A stretch of DNA of 64,000 nt from Peribacillus simplex. GTDB taxonomy: Bacteria > Bacillota > Bacilli > Bacillales > DSM-1321. Within the stretch, counting starts at the first letter, position 1. Each line of letters starts with the position of its first letter. This document shows, piece by piece, positions 43,948 to 55,126 of the stretch. The notes under the pieces are model-generated. The model searched no databases and was not told where the DNA came from. It saw only the letters and a program-made list of their open reading frames with translations. Location: positions 62,001-126,000 of the forward strand of contig NZ_FTMX01000005.1 of NCBI RefSeq assembly GCF_900156045.1, read 5' to 3'. Both the position numbers and the translations under genes were made by a program.

Positions 43948-44960
43948 ATGTTTACAAATTTAGTGCTTGTTACTGGTCAAGTTATTACATCAAACATGGA
44001 ATATGACGTAAATGAATCTGTTGCAGTTTCCGATAAACGATTGATTGGATCTCAAACGGAGGTAGTGGATTTAGCAGGTAGAAGTTTAGTGCCAGGTTTT
44101 ATTGACTCTCACCTTTATATGGTACAAATAAATTAGGGGTAAGCTCCAAGGAGCCCCTTTCGAATCTTTACATGATGTTTTAAAAGGAATAGAAAAAAAG
44201 TGAATGATACACCAATTGGAAAGTGGGTACGTGCATGGGGATTCCATGAAACCAAAATATCAGAAAATGGATATCCTTCTAGAAAAGAATTGGAGCTCAT
44301 TTCTAGCAATCACCCGATCATTCTTCGGCGTGCCTGTGGTCACATTTCCGTGGTAAATAGCAATGCGTTGGAGATAGCAGGAATTGATGTGCATACCCAA
44401 GATTCCGAAGGTGGATTATTAGTCCGAGATGAAGCAGGAGTTCCTACAGGCGTATTAATAGAAAATGCTCAAATCCCTTTTTACGAATTCGCTTATTATA
44501 CACATGATGAGCTTTTGCAAGGATTAATGATGGCATCTAATGATTTTATCGCTTCTGGCATTACGAGCATTCACGATGCAGGTGTCTCTAGCCCGGAAAA
44601 CTTTAGTGTGATGCAGAAGGCGGTTCGTAACGGAAAGGTTCAGGTTAGGACATATTGATTGTCTCGACAATCAATAAGTCAGAAGAATTTGTTGACAAGA
44701 TGATTTCAACAGGTCTGGGAGATGAGAAATTTAAAATTGGCCCAGCTAAGGTATTTACCGATGGAAGTAGTAGCGGACCAACTGCTGCAATGAGGGAACC
44801 TTACGCTGATAATTCAGAAAGTTCCGGTATATTGTACTTTAGCCAGTATGAACTTAACCGGATTCTCGGGGAGGCTCATGAAAAAGGGATTAGATCACAG
44901 CTCATGCTCAAGGAGACAGGGCTATAGAAATGATGCTTAACTGTATTGAGGTAAAATTCC
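43948..44960 (+). pseudogene. Decayed YtcJ-type amidohydrolase (several frameshifts, C-terminus deleted)
   Basis: Three frame fragments together follow the intact amidohydrolase at 7384-9003: LVPGFIDSH then, after a two-base slip near 44120, GTNKLGVSSK; then KWVRAWGFHETKISENGYPS; then, after a shift near 44657, KFKIGPAKVFTDGSSSGPT; then, after another shift near 44895, TAHAQGDRAIEMMLNCIE. Homology ends near 44950, where the intact protein still has about 190 residues, including the later metal ligands. GAGGTGA before ATG 43948 is intact. The gene lies at the end of the Dpp-type cluster, so an amidase step has been lost here. Confidence 0.88.
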
Positions 44961-46588: not shown

Positions 46589-47254
46589 TTATTGATCAAT
46601 GATGGACTTAAAAGTTGCTTTTATTGTGTTGAAGCTTTTTTCGATATGAGAATGCATTTCCTGTTCGGCTTGTACCGGATCTTTATTCTGAATGGCTAGA
46701 AGGATCCGTTCATGATCATCTACAAAATTAGAAAAGTTTTTAAAATGCACTTTTAAAATACTAGTTCTTATATATAGTATTTTAGTCTTAATAACATCGC
46801 ATAATTGGATTAATTGGTGGTTGTGGGAAGCAAGGTCAATGATATCGTGAAATTCCTGATTTAGTTGTGTAAGCTTTTTTGTATCATTCATATTCACGGC
46901 TATTTTAGAGTCATTTATAACTTCGACCAATTTGCTTAATTCCTCATCTGTGATATTCTGAGTTGCTAATTTAACAGCTAAAGATTCAAGGCTAATTCGG
47001 CATTGATATACATCAATAATGTCTTGTACGCTAGGGTTATAAACAGATATGACCTTACCATTACGAACGAGTAGGTAGTCTTTCAATAACATCTGGAAGG
47101 CTTCTCTAATTGTACCCCGGCTAACCCCGATTCTTTCAGCAACCCTGGTTTCGACCAAACGCTCTCCAGGTTGATATTCACCGTCTATTATCATACCTTT
47201 CAGGATGTGATATACCTGATTATGAAGCAGTTCAGTTTTTTGTATTTCTTTCAT
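46589..47254 (-). CDS. GntR/FadR-family transcriptional regulator
   Basis: The 221-residue protein has an N-terminal winged HTH (GERLVETRVAERIGVSRGTI, residues about 31-50) and an all-helical FCD effector domain (about 85-215) with the histidine/aspartate pattern expected for a metal-bound carboxylate ligand. FCD regulators usually respond to organic acids. ATG 47254 has a G-rich site just upstream. It is divergent from the CoA-transferase operon, and a palindrome sits over that operon's -35, so it is the probable repressor. Confidence 0.88.
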   Translation of the reverse strand: MKEIQKTELLHNQVYHILKGMIIDGEYQPGERLVETRVAERIGVSRGTIREAFQMLLKDYLLVRNGKVISVYNPSVQDIIDVYQCRISLESLAVKLATQNITDEELSKLVEVINDSKIAVNMNDTKKLTQLNQEFHDIIDLASHNHQLIQLCDVIKTKILYIRTSILKVHFKNFSNFVDDHERILLAIQNKDPVQAEQEMHSHIEKSFNTIKATFKSIIDQ

Positions 47255-47397
47255 AATATTGCCCCCCCTATGTAACAAATTTATATCTATATATAAAATA
47301 GTCTATTTATTTGGATTTTTCAGTTCATAGATATATTTCAATAATAATAGCTTAAATCCTACTTTAATAGCTCAAATTATAACATAAAAAAATGTTG

Positions 47398-47437
47398 ACG
47401 GTTAACCGTTGACATTATAATAATTGTCAATTACTAT
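47398..47437 (+). promoter_or_regulatory. Promoter and palindromic operator of the CoA-transferase/lyase operon
   Basis: ACGGTTAACCGT (47398-47409) is a perfect 12-base palindrome abutting a consensus TTGACA (47409-47414); TACTAT (47432-47437) follows after 17 bases. A further TTGACA-N10-TGTCAA repeat runs into the spacer. The arrangement fits repression by the divergent GntR regulator. The leader to ATG 47553 is about 110 bases. Confidence 0.65.
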
Positions 47438-47552
47438 AAGAATTATCAAAAAATTAGGAAAGTTTTTGTTTTAACGGAATTGATTTTTATAGAAAACAAG
47501 TGTTTACAACGTAATTTATCTAGGAAGAAAAAATAAAAAGAGGTGAATGTAC

Positions 47553-48791
47553 ATGGGTGAAGATATAAAACAGGGTGCCTTGAAGGGATTAAAGGTATTG
47601 GAATTAGGTAGTTTGATAGCTGGTCCTTTTGCCGGAAGATTAATGGCTGACTTTGGGGCCGAGGTAATAAAAGTAGAACCTCCAGGAAAGGGGGACCCTA
47701 TCAGAAATTGGAGATTACTATACGAGGGCACATCCTTATGGTGGTTTGTTCAATCCAGGAACAAAAAAAGTATTTCATTGGACTTACGCAAAACGGAAGC
47801 TCAAGAGATCATTCGGGAATTAGCAAAAGAAGTGGATATTATTATTGAAAACTTCAAACCCGGGACTATGGAGAAGTGGGGACTTGGCTATGACGATTTA
47901 AAAAAAATTAATCCTAAGATTATTATGGTCAGGGTATCAGGATATGGCCAAGATGGACCGTACCGAAATAAGCCAGGGTTTGGAAGCATTGGAGAAGCAA
48001 TGGGGGGGATCCGTTATTTAACAGGTTATCCTGATAGGCCACCAACAAGGGTCGGGGTTAGCTTGGGAGATTCTGTAACTGCATTATATGCTGTTATGGG
48101 GGCATTAATGGCTGTATATCATAGAGACCAACCTGGTGGAGAAGGACAATGTGTTGATGTTGCTCTATATGAATCAATCTTCAGTTTAATGGAAAGTGCA
48201 GTTCCAGAGTACGACCATTACGGAGTGGTTCGTGAAAGAACCGGAAGCACCCTACCAGGAATAGCACCTTCGAATACATATCCTTGCAGGGATGGTAAAT
48301 ACATTGTAATCGGGGCAAATGGAGATGGCATCTTCAAAAGGCTTATGGAGGTTATCGAAAGACCAGATTTAAGGGATGACCTTAAATTCTCATCTAATGA
48401 CGGACGTGTACAGAATGCTGAGTATCTAGATGAAGTAATTGGTGGGTGGACGTTACAACATAATTTAGCTGATGCCTTGGTATTACTTGATGATTCAGAC
48501 ATACCTGCAGGATCAATATATAGTGTTGAGGACATGGTGCATGATCCACATTTCCTTGCTAGGGAAATGATCCATAATATGGATGTTGAAGGCCTTGGAA
48601 AACTTAAAGTTCCAGGCATTGTACCCAAGTTGAGTAAAACTCCCGGAAGTATTAATTGGGCTGGTCCAAAACTAGGAGAGCACACAGAACAGGTTTTAAA
48701 GGGGGAATTAGAATTAGCGGAGGATAAATATGATGAGTGGCTCGCTTCCGGGGTAATTTCAGATCATGAAACTATTAAGCTGAAAAAATAG
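47553..48791 (+). CDS. CaiB/BaiF (class III) CoA-transferase, first copy
   Basis: The 412-residue protein has class III CoA-transferase features: ELGSLIAGPFAGRLMADFGAEVIKVE with the CoA-pocket pattern near residues 14-40, NKKSISLDLR near 71, and the catalytic aspartate in SLGDSVTALYA near residue 172. These enzymes move CoA from succinyl-CoA or similar donors onto organic acids such as citramalate, itaconate or hydroxymethylglutarate. ATG 47553 has AGAGGTGA upstream; ATG 47547 is too close to it. It is the first gene of a seven-gene operon. Confidence 0.87.
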   Translation: MGEDIKQGALKGLKVLELGSLIAGPFAGRLMADFGAEVIKVEPPGKGDPIRNWRLLYEGTSLWWFVQSRNKKSISLDLRKTEAQEIIRELAKEVDIIIENFKPGTMEKWGLGYDDLKKINPKIIMVRVSGYGQDGPYRNKPGFGSIGEAMGGIRYLTGYPDRPPTRVGVSLGDSVTALYAVMGALMAVYHRDQPGGEGQCVDVALYESIFSLMESAVPEYDHYGVVRERTGSTLPGIAPSNTYPCRDGKYIVIGANGDGIFKRLMEVIERPDLRDDLKFSSNDGRVQNAEYLDEVIGGWTLQHNLADALVLLDDSDIPAGSIYSVEDMVHDPHFLAREMIHNMDVEGLGKLKVPGIVPKLSKTPGSINWAGPKLGEHTEQVLKGELELAEDKYDEWLASGVISDHETIKLKK

Positions 48792-48819
48792 CAGTACAAA
48801 ATGAGGAGATGAAATAAAA

Positions 48820-49749
48820 ATGAACTTACCAAAACGTGTTGATATTATAGAATCTGGACCAAGGGACGGAATTCAAAATGAAAAAATCTTTATTCCAACT
48901 GATGTGAAATTGCAATTGATACATGCGCTGAGTGAGACGGGAATTAAAAGAATGGAGGCTACTTCATTCGTTTCACCTAAACATGTACCACAAATGGCAG
49001 ATGGAGCCGAAGTTTTTAGAAATATCAACAAACGAGAAGATGTGCAATACATGACCTTGATTCCAAATAAGAGGGGATTTGATTGGGCTAAAGATGTAGG
49101 GGCAACCAGTCTGGCCTTGTTTGTTGCGGCAAGTGAGACGTTTAATAAAAAAAATGTAAGGATGTCCATTGAAGAGTCCTTATTCCAGTTATCCTCTGTT
49201 GTAGAGGAGGCTAAGAATAAAAATATGTTCATACGGTTTCATATCTCAACTGCTTTTTATTGCCCATATGAAGGTCCCGTTCAGGAGGAAACAACCCTTA
49301 GTCTTGTTCATACGTTAGAAAAATTAAATGTGGACGAAATTGTGCTTTGCGATACAATAGGCCGGGCTAATCCTAAGCAAGTATATCAATTGTTCGGTAA
49401 AACCTTGGACCTCTCACCCTCAGCGAAAATAACAGCCCATTTCCATGATACTTATGGTTTATCAAAAGCGAACTCATTAGCAGCATTGCAAGCGGGTATC
49501 ACTTCTTTTGATACTTCCATAGGAGGATTAGGTGGTTGCCCCTTTGCGCCGGGAGCAGCAGGAAACGATGCAACTGAAGACTTTGTATTCATGCTACATG
49601 AAATGGGAATAGAGACTGGTATTGATTTTAATAAACTAATGCAATGTGTAACTCTGATAAAGAAAATGACGAATCGTACATTGACTGGCCACCTCCATAA
49701 AATAGCAAATCCATACTCCTCAGATAATAACACCAAAATTAAATTGTAA
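48820..49749 (+). CDS. Hydroxymethylglutaryl-CoA lyase
   Basis: The 309-residue TIM-barrel enzyme has ESGPRDGIQNEK at residues 11-22 with the catalytic Arg-Asp, LCDTIGRANP near 168, HFHDTYGLSKAN near 208 with the metal histidines, and the HMG-CoA lyase signature GGLGGCPFAPGAAGN near 235-249 with its cysteine. It splits HMG-CoA (or a close analogue) into acetyl-CoA and acetoacetate. The divalent metal ligands are all present. It sits between a CoA-transferase and a citrate-type transporter rather than in a leucine operon, so the substrate may be a 3-hydroxy-3-alkylglutaryl-CoA. Confidence 0.9.
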   Translation: MNLPKRVDIIESGPRDGIQNEKIFIPTDVKLQLIHALSETGIKRMEATSFVSPKHVPQMADGAEVFRNINKREDVQYMTLIPNKRGFDWAKDVGATSLALFVAASETFNKKNVRMSIEESLFQLSSVVEEAKNKNMFIRFHISTAFYCPYEGPVQEETTLSLVHTLEKLNVDEIVLCDTIGRANPKQVYQLFGKTLDLSPSAKITAHFHDTYGLSKANSLAALQAGITSFDTSIGGLGGCPFAPGAAGNDATEDFVFMLHEMGIETGIDFNKLMQCVTLIKKMTNRTLTGHLHKIANPYSSDNNTKIKL

Positions 49750-49931
49750 AACAGTTTATTCATAAATATATATCACTCCCTCCATAGAGCAACTTGTAAT
49801 TTCTCTTCATGACAAGGAATGTAACCGTTTTCTCAGAGAGTTTGAAAGGATTTTTAGGTATTTTCTTCAATTCCTTTCGTTTGAAATGGATATAAGGGCT
49901 ACAAATAAATCATTTACAAGGGGATATGTGA

Positions 49932-51233
49932 ATGGCTATTTTAGGGTTTCTGATGATTGGTACATTTCTTTATTTAGTAATGTCAAAACGTGTTTCTGTT
50001 TTAATCGCTTTTGCACTTGTGCCGATTATATTTGCACTTATCGGCGGATTTGGTTTGGAAATAGGAAAAATGATGTTGGATGGAATTGCAAAAGTTACAC
50101 CGACAGGGATTATGATTGGTTTCTCCATTTTGTACTTTGGTTTGATGATCGATAGGGGCTTATTTGACCCAATGATATCCCGCCTAATTCGATTTGCAAA
50201 TGGAGATCCTCTCAAAATAGTTATGGCCACGGCTATCATAACTTTAGTAGTTGCTTTGGATGGGGACGGATCAGCAACTTTCATGATAACAGTCACGGCT
50301 TTGTTGCCAATTTATAAAAGGCTCGGCATGAGCTCACTTACTTTAGCTGGAGTAGTAGCGTTGGGTGCGGGTGTCATGAATATCATTCCATGGGGAGGGC
50401 CGCTGGCTAGGGCAATGGTTTCCCTTGGGGCGGAATCCACTGAATTGTTTAATCCCATTATTCCAGCCATGTTAGCTGGGGCTGTTTGGGTAGTATTTGT
50501 ATCGTATATATTTGGTATGAGAGAACGTAAAAGAATAGGCATAATTAAGGTTAACAAAGGCGATTCAATGGAATCGGGAGAAATCGCGGCAACACTAGAA
50601 ATGTCATCCAGTCTACCGAAATTATATTGGTTCAACTTAATCTTAACTATTTCTTTGATTGTTGCTCTAATAATGGAAATAATTCCAGTGCCCGTCTTAT
50701 TCATTGTTGCGTTCGCCATTGCTTTGTTAGTGAACTTTCCCGACGTGAAAAAACAGCAAGAACAAATTGCTTCTCACGCCCAAAGCATGGTTATGGTATG
50801 TACTACCATATTCGCGGCTGGTATTTTTACAGGAATACTTTCTGGAACTAAGATGATTGACGCAATGGCCGTTTCTATGGTTTCAGCTATACCGGATTGG
50901 CTGGGAGGACATCTACCAATCCTAGTAGCCGTGGTCAGTATGCCTTTAAGTTTAATATTTTCTCCTGATGCCTTTTATTATGGGCTACTTCCGGTCCTAA
51001 GTGAGGCCGGGACAGCCTTTGGAGTTGATCCAATAGAAATTGGCAGGGCTGCTTTATTAGGGAACGGGACAACGGGTTTTCCCTTGAGTCCATTAAATCC
51101 GTCTGTATTTGTCCTAATTGGATTATGTAAGGTCGATTTAGGAGATCTTCAGAAAAAGATTTTTTTCTGGGCTTTTGGGAGTACTATCGTGATGACAATC
51201 GTGGCATTGCTTACAGGGGCAATACCTCTTTAA
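49932..51233 (+). CDS. CitMHS-family citrate/organic acid transporter
   Basis: The 433-residue membrane protein (about 11-12 helices) resembles Bacillus CitM and CitH, for example GLMIDRGLFDPMISR near residue 76, DGDGSATFMITVTALLPIYK near 112 and NIIPWGGPLARAM near 153. CitM and CitH import citrate as a complex with divalent metal ions driven by protons. Within this operon it probably imports the pathway substrate, a di- or tricarboxylate. AAGGGGA precedes the ATG. Confidence 0.9.
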   Translation: MAILGFLMIGTFLYLVMSKRVSVLIAFALVPIIFALIGGFGLEIGKMMLDGIAKVTPTGIMIGFSILYFGLMIDRGLFDPMISRLIRFANGDPLKIVMATAIITLVVALDGDGSATFMITVTALLPIYKRLGMSSLTLAGVVALGAGVMNIIPWGGPLARAMVSLGAESTELFNPIIPAMLAGAVWVVFVSYIFGMRERKRIGIIKVNKGDSMESGEIAATLEMSSSLPKLYWFNLILTISLIVALIMEIIPVPVLFIVAFAIALLVNFPDVKKQQEQIASHAQSMVMVCTTIFAAGIFTGILSGTKMIDAMAVSMVSAIPDWLGGHLPILVAVVSMPLSLIFSPDAFYYGLLPVLSEAGTAFGVDPIEIGRAALLGNGTTGFPLSPLNPSVFVLIGLCKVDLGDLQKKIFFWAFGSTIVMTIVALLTGAIPL

Positions 51234-51265
51234 CAGGTTGAAAAATTAAATTAGGGAGTGGTTCA

Positions 51266-52426
51266 ATGTTACCTCTTGAGGGAATTACAGTTGTGTCATT
51301 AGAACAGGCAGTGGCAGCTCCCTTTGCTTCTCGCCAATTGGCAGACTTGGGAGCGCGTGTGATAAAGGTAGAGAGGCCTGGATCTGGAGACTTCGCACGA
51401 AACTATGATTCAACCGTTCACGGAATGTCGAGCCACTTTGTCTGGCTCAATCGATCGAAAGAATCCTTGGCGCTTGATCTAAAACAGGATGGAGCAAAGC
51501 TGGTTCTGGATAAACTGCTCTCGGAGGCGGACGTATTCATTCAAAACTTGGCACCCGGCGCTGTTGATCGACTTGGTTTTAGTTCCACTGTCCTCAAAGA
51601 AAAATATCCTCAACTTGTGATTTGCGGAATTTCAGGTTACGGTACGTTTGGTCCTTATATGGATAAAAAGGCATACGATTTACTCATTCAATGTGAGGCG
51701 GGAGTCGTTTCCATTACTGGAACAAGAGACAATCCATCGAAAGCAGGCATTTCGATTGCGGATATTGCAGCAGGCATGTATGCGTACTCTGGTATATTGA
51801 CTGCACTTATTTCTCGTTTTAGGACAGGTAAGGGAAAGGTAATGGAGGTCTCAATGCTTGAGGCATTGGGAGAATGGATGGGATATCCACTTTACTATTC
51901 TGGGTATGGTGGGACGGATCTGAAGCGAACTGGGGCAAATCACGCAACGATTTATCCTTATGGTCCGTTCCTTGCAGGGGATGGAAAATTAGTCTTCATG
52001 GGCATTCAAAATGAACGAGAGTGGGAAAGCTTTTGCACACAGGTGTTAGAAAAATCTGAATTAATTACTGATAGAAGGTTTCATAGTAACGCATTCCGAG
52101 TTACTAATAGCAGTATTCTGAAAGAAATGATTGACGCTGTTTTTCAAAAAATGAACTCGAGTGAGATAATTGAAAAACTTGAAAAAGCAAAAATTGCGAA
52201 TGCCCATTTAAATACGGTAACAGAATTCATAAACCATCCACAATTGAAAATCCGGAAACGTTGGCAAGAAGTCGATTCTCCCGCTGGAAAATTAAACGCA
52301 CTCATACCTCCTGTGACTTTCGAAGATGTTGACCCAGTTATGAATCCTATACCGGATGTTGGCGAGCATACAGAGTCGATACTAAAGGAGTTTGGATTTG
52401 AAAACCAAATCATCGGAAAAATATAA
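51266..52426 (+). CDS. CaiB/BaiF (class III) CoA-transferase, second copy
   Basis: The 386-residue protein is a second, clearly divergent class III CoA-transferase: EQAVAAPFASRQLADLGARV near residues 12-31 and GISIADIAAGMYAYSGILTA with the catalytic aspartate near residue 163. Two different family members in one operon suggest two CoA-acceptor steps, or two donor/acceptor pairs. It precedes a CitE-like lyase, as in citramalate and itaconate systems. Confidence 0.87.
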   Translation: MLPLEGITVVSLEQAVAAPFASRQLADLGARVIKVERPGSGDFARNYDSTVHGMSSHFVWLNRSKESLALDLKQDGAKLVLDKLLSEADVFIQNLAPGAVDRLGFSSTVLKEKYPQLVICGISGYGTFGPYMDKKAYDLLIQCEAGVVSITGTRDNPSKAGISIADIAAGMYAYSGILTALISRFRTGKGKVMEVSMLEALGEWMGYPLYYSGYGGTDLKRTGANHATIYPYGPFLAGDGKLVFMGIQNEREWESFCTQVLEKSELITDRRFHSNAFRVTNSSILKEMIDAVFQKMNSSEIIEKLEKAKIANAHLNTVTEFINHPQLKIRKRWQEVDSPAGKLNALIPPVTFEDVDPVMNPIPDVGEHTESILKEFGFENQIIGKI

Positions 52427-52470
52427 GGTATTAACTTCCTAATGATGGAAAAATGAAAAGGGGTGAAGTT

Positions 52471-53334
52471 ATGATTCCTCGGACATGGATGTTCATTCCT
52501 GGATCTGATGAAAAGAAATTAAAGAAAGTCCAGCAATTATGCGCCGATGTATTCATTTATGATTTAGAAGATGCTGTTTCTCCAGAAGGAAAAAAAGATG
52601 CAAGAGCTTTAGTAAGGAAATATATCAAAGCGAATCAGGAAAAGGAAAATTTCATCAGAATAAATGGATTCCACACACCATATTTTTACGATGATTTACT
52701 TGATCTAATCGATTCCGGCTTGACAGGAATTGTATTACCGAAAGCTGAGACAAAAGAAGAAATTATGTCTTTAGATCATATATTAGTTGAAAGGGAGTCT
52801 AAAAGGAATCTAAATAAAGGCCAGATAAAAATTGTTCCTTTAATAGAGTCGGCTCTAGGACTATATAATTCTTATGAAATCGCATCTGCTAGTCAGAGAG
52901 TTCAGCAGCTTGCATTCGGTTCCATGGACTATGCATTCGATATAAAAGCAATAATAACGAAGGATGCCCATGAATTGCTTTATGCAAGATCCCATTTGGT
53001 TGTTACTTCCAGGGCTGCGGGAGTTGGACCTCCTATTGACACGGTTTATGTTGATATTAAAAATCATAAAGGCTTCCTAGCCGAAACCCAGCTTGTTAAG
53101 GAGCTTGGATTTCAAGGGAAATTAATCATTCACCCTGATCAGGTCGATCTTGTAAACCAGGTCTTTGCACCTAACCCTGAAGAAATTGAGGAAGCAGAAA
53201 GAATTGTAAGAGCGTTCGAACAGGCATTAGCCAAAGGGGAAGGCGTTTTGCAGCTTGAAGGGAAAATGATTGACCTTCCTATTGTAGAACGTGCTAAGCG
53301 TACCCTTCAATCAGTTAATTTATATCAATTGTGA
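52471..53334 (+). CDS. CitE-like CoA-ester lyase (HpcH/HpaI family)
   Basis: The 287-residue protein belongs to the CitE/CLYBL/malyl-CoA lyase group: WMFIPGSDEKKLKK near residue 5-18, FIYDLEDAVSPEGK near 27-40, LPKAETKEEI near 89 and IVPLIESALGLYN near 122 with the metal glutamate. Such lyases split citramalyl-CoA, malyl-CoA or beta-methylmalyl-CoA into acyl-CoA plus a 2-oxo acid. It is free-standing, with no citrate-lyase alpha or gamma subunits nearby. I chose ATG 52471 because GGGGTGA precedes it; ATG 52453 has no site. Confidence 0.87.
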   Translation: MIPRTWMFIPGSDEKKLKKVQQLCADVFIYDLEDAVSPEGKKDARALVRKYIKANQEKENFIRINGFHTPYFYDDLLDLIDSGLTGIVLPKAETKEEIMSLDHILVERESKRNLNKGQIKIVPLIESALGLYNSYEIASASQRVQQLAFGSMDYAFDIKAIITKDAHELLYARSHLVVTSRAAGVGPPIDTVYVDIKNHKGFLAETQLVKELGFQGKLIIHPDQVDLVNQVFAPNPEEIEEAERIVRAFEQALAKGEGVLQLEGKMIDLPIVERAKRTLQSVNLYQL

Positions 53335-53393
53335 AATTGAAACGATCAAGTATCGCTCCAGTTCGGACTTGAGCATGAAGAAAGGACTTTATT

Positions 53394-54779
53394 ATGAAGA
53401 AGGTTAGAATTGGTTCAGGTGCGGGATACGCGGGAGATCGCATTGAGCCAGCAATGGAATTGATTCAAAAAGGAGATTTGGATTATATCATTTTTGAATG
53501 CTTAGCCGAAAGAACAATTGCCCTTGCACAGCAGGCGAAAATGAAAAATCCAGATGAGGGGTACAACCATTTATTGAAGTATCGTATGGAAAAGGTCTTA
53601 TTACTATGTGTCGAGAATAATGTCACATTAATCACCAATATTGGAGCAGCAAACCCTCTCGCAGCCGCTAAGGTTGTTAAGAATATAGCAGAGGAAAAAG
53701 GCATCAGTAATTTAAAAATAGCAGCTGTAAGTGGAGATGATGTATATCCGAACATTGGAAAGTACATGGATTGCACAATAATAGAAACCGGAGTTCCATT
53801 GAAAGAGTTGAAGTCTTCCATAATTTCTGCAAATGCCTATATCGGAATTTCTGGAATTGTTACCGCTTTGCAGGAAGGGGCAGATATTGTAATTACGGGC
53901 CGGGTATCAGATCCTTCATTAGTAGTTGCACCACTTAAGCATGAATTTGGTTGGGAAGATACAGATTATGAGCTTCTTGGTAAGGGGACAGCCGCTGGTC
54001 ATTTACTCGAGTGTGCAGCCCAAGTGACCGGTGGTTATTTCGCAGATCCAGGGGATAAGGATGTTCCTGACTTATGGAATGTAGGTTTTCCGATCGCCGA
54101 AGTACAGGAAAATGGAGACTTTTTATTAAGCAAGCTTGAGGATTCGGGAGGCATGGTTACGACTGCTACCGTAAAGGAACAGATTGTATATGAAATTCAC
54201 GACCCAACCCGATATCTTACTCCCGATGTTATCGCTGATTTTTCTGAAATAGAAGTGATAGAAAAAGAAACAAACCAAGTGCAAATTAAGGGAGTGTCTG
54301 GAAAAGAGAAGAGCGGTTACTATAAAACGAGCATCGGCTATTTGGACGGATATATAGTTGAAGCAGAAATTAGTTACGGAGGTTCAGGTTGTTTAGGAAG
54401 GTCAAGACTGGCGGAAGAAGTAGTGAGACACCGGTTGATTCAGGCTAATATTGAGATTCAAGAAATGAGAATTGATCATATTGGTTCTAATTCGCTTTAT
54501 CGATCTTCTATTTCGGCACCGTTGTATGACAAGGAAAGACTATCGGAGGTACGATTAAGGGTGGCAGCCAGGACTGCTGATAAAGGAGCCGCTAATTTGA
54601 TCGGCCAAGAGGTGGAAGGTCTATATACTAATGGGCCTGCTGGAGGCGGTGGTGTTCGGGTTAGTGTCCAAGAGGTTGTATCAATTGCCTCAATTCTTAT
54701 TCCTAGCGATGATATTACAATCGACGTAACGTACGAGGAGGTCGACAAGAATGAAACTCAAGCAAGTCACTCACTCTAG
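53394..54779 (+). CDS. AtuA-type protein (DUF1446), large component
   Basis: The 461-residue protein matches the DUF1446/AtuA family: VRIGSGAGYAGDRIEPAMEL at the N-terminus, FECLAERTIALAQ near 43, IGAANPLAAAKVV near 85, and TGRVSDPSLVVAPLKHEFGW near 167. AtuA is named after acyclic terpene utilization in Pseudomonas, where its reaction is not firmly known to me. The C-terminal small domain often fused to this family is encoded here by the next gene, overlapping by 29 bases. A hydratase or isomerase acting on a branched acyl-CoA is one possibility. Confidence 0.85.
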   Translation: MKKVRIGSGAGYAGDRIEPAMELIQKGDLDYIIFECLAERTIALAQQAKMKNPDEGYNHLLKYRMEKVLLLCVENNVTLITNIGAANPLAAAKVVKNIAEEKGISNLKIAAVSGDDVYPNIGKYMDCTIIETGVPLKELKSSIISANAYIGISGIVTALQEGADIVITGRVSDPSLVVAPLKHEFGWEDTDYELLGKGTAAGHLLECAAQVTGGYFADPGDKDVPDLWNVGFPIAEVQENGDFLLSKLEDSGGMVTTATVKEQIVYEIHDPTRYLTPDVIADFSEIEVIEKETNQVQIKGVSGKEKSGYYKTSIGYLDGYIVEAEISYGGSGCLGRSRLAEEVVRHRLIQANIEIQEMRIDHIGSNSLYRSSISAPLYDKERLSEVRLRVAARTADKGAANLIGQEVEGLYTNGPAGGGGVRVSVQEVVSIASILIPSDDITIDVTYEEVDKNETQASHSL

Positions 54780-55083
54780 GTCAGGGGATAAAGGAAATAT
54801 TTCAAATGTTTCCGTCATTGTCTATCATATGGAAGATTTTGAAAAAGTAAAAAAACAGGTAACAGCAGAAAAGGTTAAGGATTTCTTTCACGAAATAGTG
54901 AAGGGTGATGTGGTTAGGTATGAACTGCCGAAAATTGGCGAATTGAATTTTGTTATGCAAAACGCATTAGGTGGAGGAGTCACAAAATCACTTTCTTTGG
55001 ATAGACATGGAAAAAGCTTGAGCTCTGCTCTCATGGATATGGAAATCGATATGGAAGCTGATGTAAATGACTCAAATCATTAA
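54751..55083 (+). CDS. AtuA C-terminal-domain-like small protein (110 aa)
   Basis: The 110-residue protein begins MKLKQVTHSRSGDKGNISNV and ends near NALGGGVTKSLSLDRHGKSL, both typical of the small domain that is fused behind DUF1446 in many AtuA proteins. It starts at ATG 54751 with GAGGAGG upstream, 29 bases inside the large gene and in another frame. The pair is thus a split form, probably a two-subunit enzyme. It is the last gene of the operon. Confidence 0.82.
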   Translation: MKLKQVTHSRSGDKGNISNVSVIVYHMEDFEKVKKQVTAEKVKDFFHEIVKGDVVRYELPKIGELNFVMQNALGGGVTKSLSLDRHGKSLSSALMDMEIDMEADVNDSNH

Positions 55084-55097
55084 TTTTCTTACGAAGG

Positions 55098-55126
55098 CGA
55101 GCCAATTATTCAGGGGCTCGTTTTTT
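55098..55126 (+). terminator. Terminator of the CoA-transferase/lyase/AtuA operon
   Basis: CGAGCC (55098-55103) pairs with GGCTCG (55115-55120), followed by six T residues. Confidence 0.8.

Follow-up and report, generated by a model that had tools for sequence, protein, structure and literature searches.

Within a 64,000-nucleotide stretch of the Peribacillus simplex genome (NCBI RefSeq assembly GCF_900156045.1, contig NZ_FTMX01000005.1, positions 62,001 to 126,000; hereafter the window), seven co-directional genes encode two family III coenzyme A (CoA) transferases (CaiB1 and CaiB2), an enzyme of the 3-hydroxy-3-methylglutaryl-CoA (HMG-CoA) lyase type (HMGL), a CitMHS-family symporter, a CitE-like lyase, and the large protein AtuA with a small partner, which we label AtuB (the PF23544 protein, distinct from the AtuB of Pseudomonas). 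Our analysis makes it somewhat probable that this operon imports a 3-hydroxy-3-methyl dicarboxylate via CitMHS and cleaves it through three modules working in parallel, the substrate 3-hydroxy-3-methylglutarate (HMG) being slightly favoured over its near alternative citramalate, or both being used. In this working scheme, the CitMHS symporter would bring in the acid, after which CaiB1 would add CoA and HMGL would cut the ester to acetyl-CoA and acetoacetate, or pyruvate if the acid is citramalate (module A); CaiB2 and the CitE-like lyase would reach the same outcome, probably starting from the CoA ester of opposite configuration (module B); and AtuA with AtuB would cut the free acid, without CoA, to acetate and acetoacetate or pyruvate (module C). 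A nucleotide may take part in the last step, as suggested by the mention of ADP in the title of the PDB structure 9evf, and the divergent GntR regulator would control the operon. Modules A and B are, as far as their sequences tell, ordinary CoA routes. From the original prediction of a catabolic operon we thus retain the imported branched hydroxy-acid, the CaiB enzymes and the two CoA-type lyases; what finds no support is AtuA as a rearranging enzyme, nor a single serial pathway requiring every part.

The reading of AtuA as a third lyase, rather than as the rearranging enzyme first proposed, is the more likely one because the AtuA model matches subunit A of citramalate lyase (9evf_A) along most of its length (VIA-align, applied in a re-examination of the top 1000 Foldseek matches). 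This relation is visible only through profile and fold, and a phmmer search of the PDB with the single AtuA sequence gave nothing significant (9erq_A at E 0.88). The solved enzyme, CmlAB (PDB 9erq/9evf), has chains that are matched near full length by ECs_0760 and ECs_0759 of E. coli O157:H7 Sakai, and it resembles the Peribacillus pair in that its large subunit is an AtuA-family protein with the same fold and a small subunit is encoded adjacent to it (105 residues in E. coli); the annotation of the 35 kb examined around the E. coli genes shows no CoA-transferase. The genomic contexts differ, since that of E. coli is 3-methylaspartate degradation and that of Peribacillus an importer operon, and neither methylaspartate ammonia-lyase nor mesaconase, both encoded by CmlAB neighbours, occurs among the ten proteins that we scanned with Pfam and NCBIfam models (45.0-56.2 kb of the window). 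In its available portion, a 2015 paper leaves open what becomes of citramalate, beside a gene for a DUF1446 protein in E. coli O157:H7, and the accessible text of a review includes genes for an "AtuA-like lyase" among those of anaerobic naphthalene breakdown (PMC12016498). A literature search, made mostly without subscription journals and without preprints, found nothing on an AtuA-type citramalate lyase or on the Peribacillus operon.

The three modules also recur apart from each other. Locus counts come from targeted, non-random fetching that included near relatives (locus L193 stands outside them), and neighbours and regulators were identified by visual judgement or from BLAST matches to a small set of reference proteins, except where a Pfam or curated scan is cited. 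An AtuB match adjoins AtuA in all 87 loci counted, a CitMHS gene lies within 4 kb of AtuA in 43 of the 62 loci with an AtuA identity of at least 47% (1 of 25 below that value), and 40 of these 62 close loci have CitMHS together with AtuA-AtuB in a stretch that yields no match to CaiB, HMGL or CitE. The own genome itself holds such a unit (locus L030), formed by a PAS/sigma-54 activator (domains assigned by Pfam), CitMHS, AtuA and AtuB, and the same arrangement is found in other Peribacillus genomes, in a Negativicutes metagenome-assembled genome and in genomes G316 and G1548, whose AtuA proteins are among the nearest relatives; in Pseudomonadota, a LysR-type gene often takes the position of the activator. 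In an AtuA tree of 74 rows (quick method, 13 of 87 sequences removed as near-copies, built without Pseudomonas or Thauera AtuA), the window protein falls in a 53-row clade (SH-aLRT 95), 31 rows of which are CitMHS-linked, and the paralog from the own genome falls elsewhere. Contexts were mixed in the 16 loci from the order of genome G440, many with Bug-type receptors and one (L145) with LysR and CitMHS.

Plasmids extend this picture. AtuA matches occur in 161 plasmid records, 60 of which were listed; from these we examined 13 regions, chosen for spread and including one Bacteroidota and one haloarchaeal record. In all 13, a small "hypothetical" gene comes after AtuA and a transporter gene adjoins the pair (CitMHS in seven, TAXI-TRAP in three, a tripartite-type receptor in one and ABC in two), with no CoA-transferase or CoA ligase annotated in the (incomplete) gene table. 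Module A stands alone in the own genome as GntR-HMGL-CaiB-CitMHS, with a CaiB 59% identical to CaiB1. For CaiB2 relatives (197 plasmid records), a "CoA ester lyase" gene lies nearby in all four regions examined among 15 listed, and the one region examined for CitE relatives (Octadecabacter, of 70 records) has neither AtuA nor CaiB annotated. Other mixtures were seen: a PAS-type regulator (by eye), AtuA, CaiB and CitMHS in one place (L060, 6970-12868), a CaiB2-like gene (46-47%) divergent to AtuA-AtuB (L114, 1950-5114), and genes of 3-hydroxybutyrate oligomer hydrolase type 3' of AtuA-AtuB (L131, 9730-11778, and L180, 10083-12185, the latter 38% identical to the former).

A serial pathway that needs all parts, in which a larger branched acid would receive CoA twice and undergo rearrangement by AtuA before two lyases cut it, is hard to reconcile with this independence. 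Although every part lies within one operon in three genomes, the modules are separate units elsewhere, the own genome included, and AtuA has a lyase fold, so that we regard this pathway as improbable; AtuA as its mutase is disfavoured, as the modules occur alone.

Regarding the substrate of the parallel modules, the most informative context comes from one order of Pseudomonadota, where LysR, CitMHS, AtuA and AtuB occur in all eight loci examined and, in three of these, an AtoD-AtoA-thiolase set continues after AtuB (AtoD and thiolase scoring over curated cut-offs). On the strength of this continuation, the product is likely to be acetoacetate and the natural substrate HMG. HMG is citrate with a methyl group replacing the central carboxylate, and because of this resemblance it fits a CitMHS importer. 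The HMGL in the window likewise points toward HMG, as do, weakly, the best PDB matches of both CaiB proteins (for CaiB1, a succinate--hydroxymethylglutarate CoA-transferase). The type of importer alone is not diagnostic, because close AtuA proteins from Rhodoplanes and a relative (L007-L010) stand beside a CitMHS of one or the other of two types (58% or 39-40% identical to that of the window). The substrates originally listed for growth tests include both citramalate and HMG, the two favoured by this evidence.

If citramalate were the only substrate, all three lyases would yield pyruvate: AtuAB would cut citramalate itself, HMGL would cut (R)-citramalyl-CoA and the CitE-like protein (S)-citramalyl-CoA. 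Chloroflexus does employ an (R)-citramalyl-CoA lyase of the HMGL family, and the nearest solved AtuA relative bears the name citramalate lyase. This explanation also gains from the neighbours of the CoA-dependent enzymes, given that relatives of CaiB1 and HMGL on Peribacillus plasmids flank LeuCD-like genes in three regions and that CaiB2 relatives are accompanied by genes for CoA ester lyases and, depending on the region, for MaoC, acyl-CoA dehydrogenase or fumarase, neighbours of C5-acid type. It leaves the AtoD-AtoA-thiolase set beside AtuAB (3/8 loci) without a clear use, the products then being pyruvate and acetate, and we hold it to be unlikely, if far from negligible. The plasmid sets of CaiB, LeuC, LeuD and HMG-CoA lyase (L184, 6010-10187; L185, 2990-6894; L186, 6001-10169) perhaps represent a C5-acid pathway. 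A further possibility is that AtuAB is a citrate (tricarboxylate) lyase free of CoA and acyl carrier protein, CitMHS proteins being known citrate carriers; a "Citrate:proton symporter" is annotated by AtuA in 7 of the 13 plasmid regions and the window symporter exceeds the TIGR00784 cut-off (547.6 against 259.7 bits), but the AtoDAB linkage, the HMGL in the window and a CitE-like protein below the citE equivalog cut-off (262.7 against 443.4 bits) all speak against it, and we give it little credence. The classical citrate lyase CitDEF was dropped on the same citE score.

Several observations, including the C5-type neighbourhoods just described, weigh against three parallel modules acting on HMG. 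The AtoDAB linkage is not seen at the window; it occurs in only three of the eight loci, two of them placed as sisters in the tree. Moreover, the model passed by the AtoD protein bears the name acetate CoA-transferase, so that acetate might be its substrate despite the thiolase that comes after it; this makes an HMG lyase less probable, and the eight PF01144 matches of the own genome, arranged in four adjacent pairs, lie elsewhere than the operon. AtuA is only 17% identical to the solved citramalate lyase; the small subunits belong to different families, PF23544 in the window and DUF4387 (PF14330) for CmlB of E. coli, and hhalign found no sequence link between them (probability 1.7%). Finally, CitMHS is not near AtuA in 19 of the 62 close loci, and one paper, as far as its available text goes, names LiuE (an HMGL) and not AtuA for the corresponding step of terpene degradation (PMC4097962).

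Among the CoA-dependent enzymes, HMGL scores 363.5 bits with PRK05692 (curated cut-off 246) and has the RDG, HFHD and GGCPFA motifs, which we take to be of metal-binding or catalytic role. Both CaiB proteins belong to PF02515 and carry the LGD/IAD motifs, and CaiB2 aligns an Asp that is presumably the active-site residue of family III CoA-transferases. Module A shares its enzyme families with the known HMG-CoA lyase and CaiB system, whose members pair with CitMHS elsewhere in the own genome, but differs in that CaiB1 (278.9 bits), like CaiB2 (228.1 bits), misses the cut-off of the succinate--glutarate (HMG) CoA-transferase equivalog NF052585 (750 bits). Similarly, the CitE-like protein has the PF03328 domain and the C-terminal M(I/V)DxP motif in common with the Rv2498c/RipC/CLYBL lyases, but scores below the RipC/Ccl equivalog cut-off (175.4 against 375 bits), and the scan found no itaconyl-CoA hydratase among the proteins of the operon. 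The itaconate pathway (Ict-Ich-Ccl) was dropped on these two grounds. According to the accessible part of one paper, the CitE-like Rv2498c uses (R)-HMG-CoA and (S)-citramalyl-CoA, in contrast to the HMGL family, which takes (S)-HMG-CoA (PMC6689899).

The complete operon was looked for in other genomes. An AtuA match is present in 14 of 36 Peribacillus genomes and an AtuA of the window type (90-100% identity) in four, three of which hold the full gene set: the own genome, Peribacillus sp. Bi96 and genome G031. In the last two, the same seven genes follow in the same order with 92-97% protein identity, and this recurrence places the arrangement beyond chance. The fourth, P. butanolivorans, has AtuA-AtuB and a short CitE remnant downstream of other genes; there, an enolase-family enzyme, a YfcC-type transporter and an M20 peptidase (by eye) replace the first genes of the operon (L004, 4592-9953). 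In Peribacillus sp. Bi96 the CitMHS gene is split in two overlapping open reading frames (ORFs), by a frameshift or a sequencing error (L003, 6533-7842), and another Peribacillus genome has a short AtuA fragment, likely a remnant (72% over 64 residues; L037, 8079-8270). AtuA matches occur in 14 of 398 genomes sampled from the phylum of the window, and AtuA (DUF1446) in 60 of 398 sampled Pseudomonadota genomes (E 1e-60 or better). The search for this gene order among relatives thus succeeded in two other Peribacillus genomes, and in none of the ten further AtuA loci examined as larger stretches (out of 13 non-own genomes of the phylum-wide sample) was the whole gene set found.

The features of the operon are collected in Table 1; ORFs together with Pfam and NCBIfam assignments confirm the seven co-directional genes and the divergent regulator that had been predicted. 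From CaiB1 to AtuA, the intergenic gaps are, in order, 28, 182, 32, 26 and 59 bases, and the AtuA and AtuB reading frames overlap by 29 bases. The regulator ORF as listed has a TTG start, with an ATG slightly internal. The inverted repeat overlaps the promoter match, and the stretch with both is conserved in two further Peribacillus genomes. A single promoter with co-transcription of the seven genes, as originally claimed, is likely and fits the upstream promoter match. Its weak point is the 182-base gap before CitMHS, which could house a second start, and many promoter matches of the region must be due to chance (59, against 36.9 expected from shuffles). Outside the operon, two adjacent ORFs (44200-44927) look by eye like fragments of one amidohydrolase gene, a possible pseudogene.

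Table 1. Predicted features of the operon region (window coordinates).
Feature	Position	Strand	Basis
GntR/FCD transcription regulator, divergent	46589..47278	-	ORF; PF00392 + PF07729
Inverted repeat (13+13 base), candidate GntR operator	47391..47416	.	85% complementary
Candidate promoter TTGACA-17-TACTAT	47409..47437	+	10/12 match
CaiB1, family III CoA-transferase	47547..48791	+	PF02515; top PDB match succinate--hydroxymethylglutarate CoA-transferase
HMG-CoA lyase type enzyme	48820..49749	+	PRK05692 over cut-off; aligns with solved HMG-CoA lyases 2cw6, 1ydo
CitMHS-family carboxylate:proton symporter (predicted)	49932..51233	+	TIGR00784 over cut-off
CaiB2, family III CoA-transferase	51266..52426	+	PF02515
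CitE-like 3-hydroxyacyl-CoA lyase (predicted)	52453..53334	+	PF03328
AtuA, large subunit of proposed CoA-independent lyase	53394..54779	+	PF07287, 523.6 bits; fold match 9evf_A
AtuB-type small subunit, AtuA_ferredoxin domain	54751..55083	+	PF23544
Intrinsic terminator-like hairpin + U-run, 3' of AtuB	55093..55125	+	-14.3 kcal/mol, z -3.57

The AtuA of terpene degradation shares the family name and is likewise proposed to split off free acetate from a 3-hydroxyglutaryl skeleton, but differs in its CoA ester substrate and in its carboxylase and hydratase partners; in their available portions, two papers disagree on whether AtuA or LiuE performs that acetate-releasing step. That the operon is a remnant of terpene (Atu) degradation, for which the family name alone speaks, is most improbable: no carboxylase (geranyl-CoA carboxylase included), enoyl-CoA hydratase or AtuE is found among the ten scanned proteins, and L011 and L036, with carboxylase, hydratase and acyl-CoA dehydrogenase neighbours (by eye), fall outside the 53-row clade of the window AtuA. 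Terpene use was set aside on the lack of carboxylase and hydratase among these proteins.

The enzyme families involved are already known, and the PDB lists one AtuA pair under the name of a lyase; what is new, as far as the literature was searched, is the gene combination, the widespread importer-AtuAB unit, the link to acetoacetate and a testable assignment. As a possibility that we put forward tentatively, AtuA and AtuB of this branch may form an undescribed, CoA-independent and nucleotide-assisted HMG lyase (releasing acetate and acetoacetate) that would have spread, joined with its importer in a unit of three genes, across several bacterial phyla and the haloarchaea; to this unit the Peribacillus operon would add the (S) as well as the (R) type of CoA-dependent HMG-CoA lyase. 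If this is true, three unlike mechanisms cut one substrate in the Peribacillus operon, and the whole AtuA family, the terpene AtuA included, would consist of acetate-releasing lyases. AtuA (DUF1446) proteins are frequent yet poorly assigned; their contexts predict a CoA-free lyase for citrate-like hydroxy-acids, a prediction that would aid the annotation of many sets of importer, AtuA and "hypothetical" genes.

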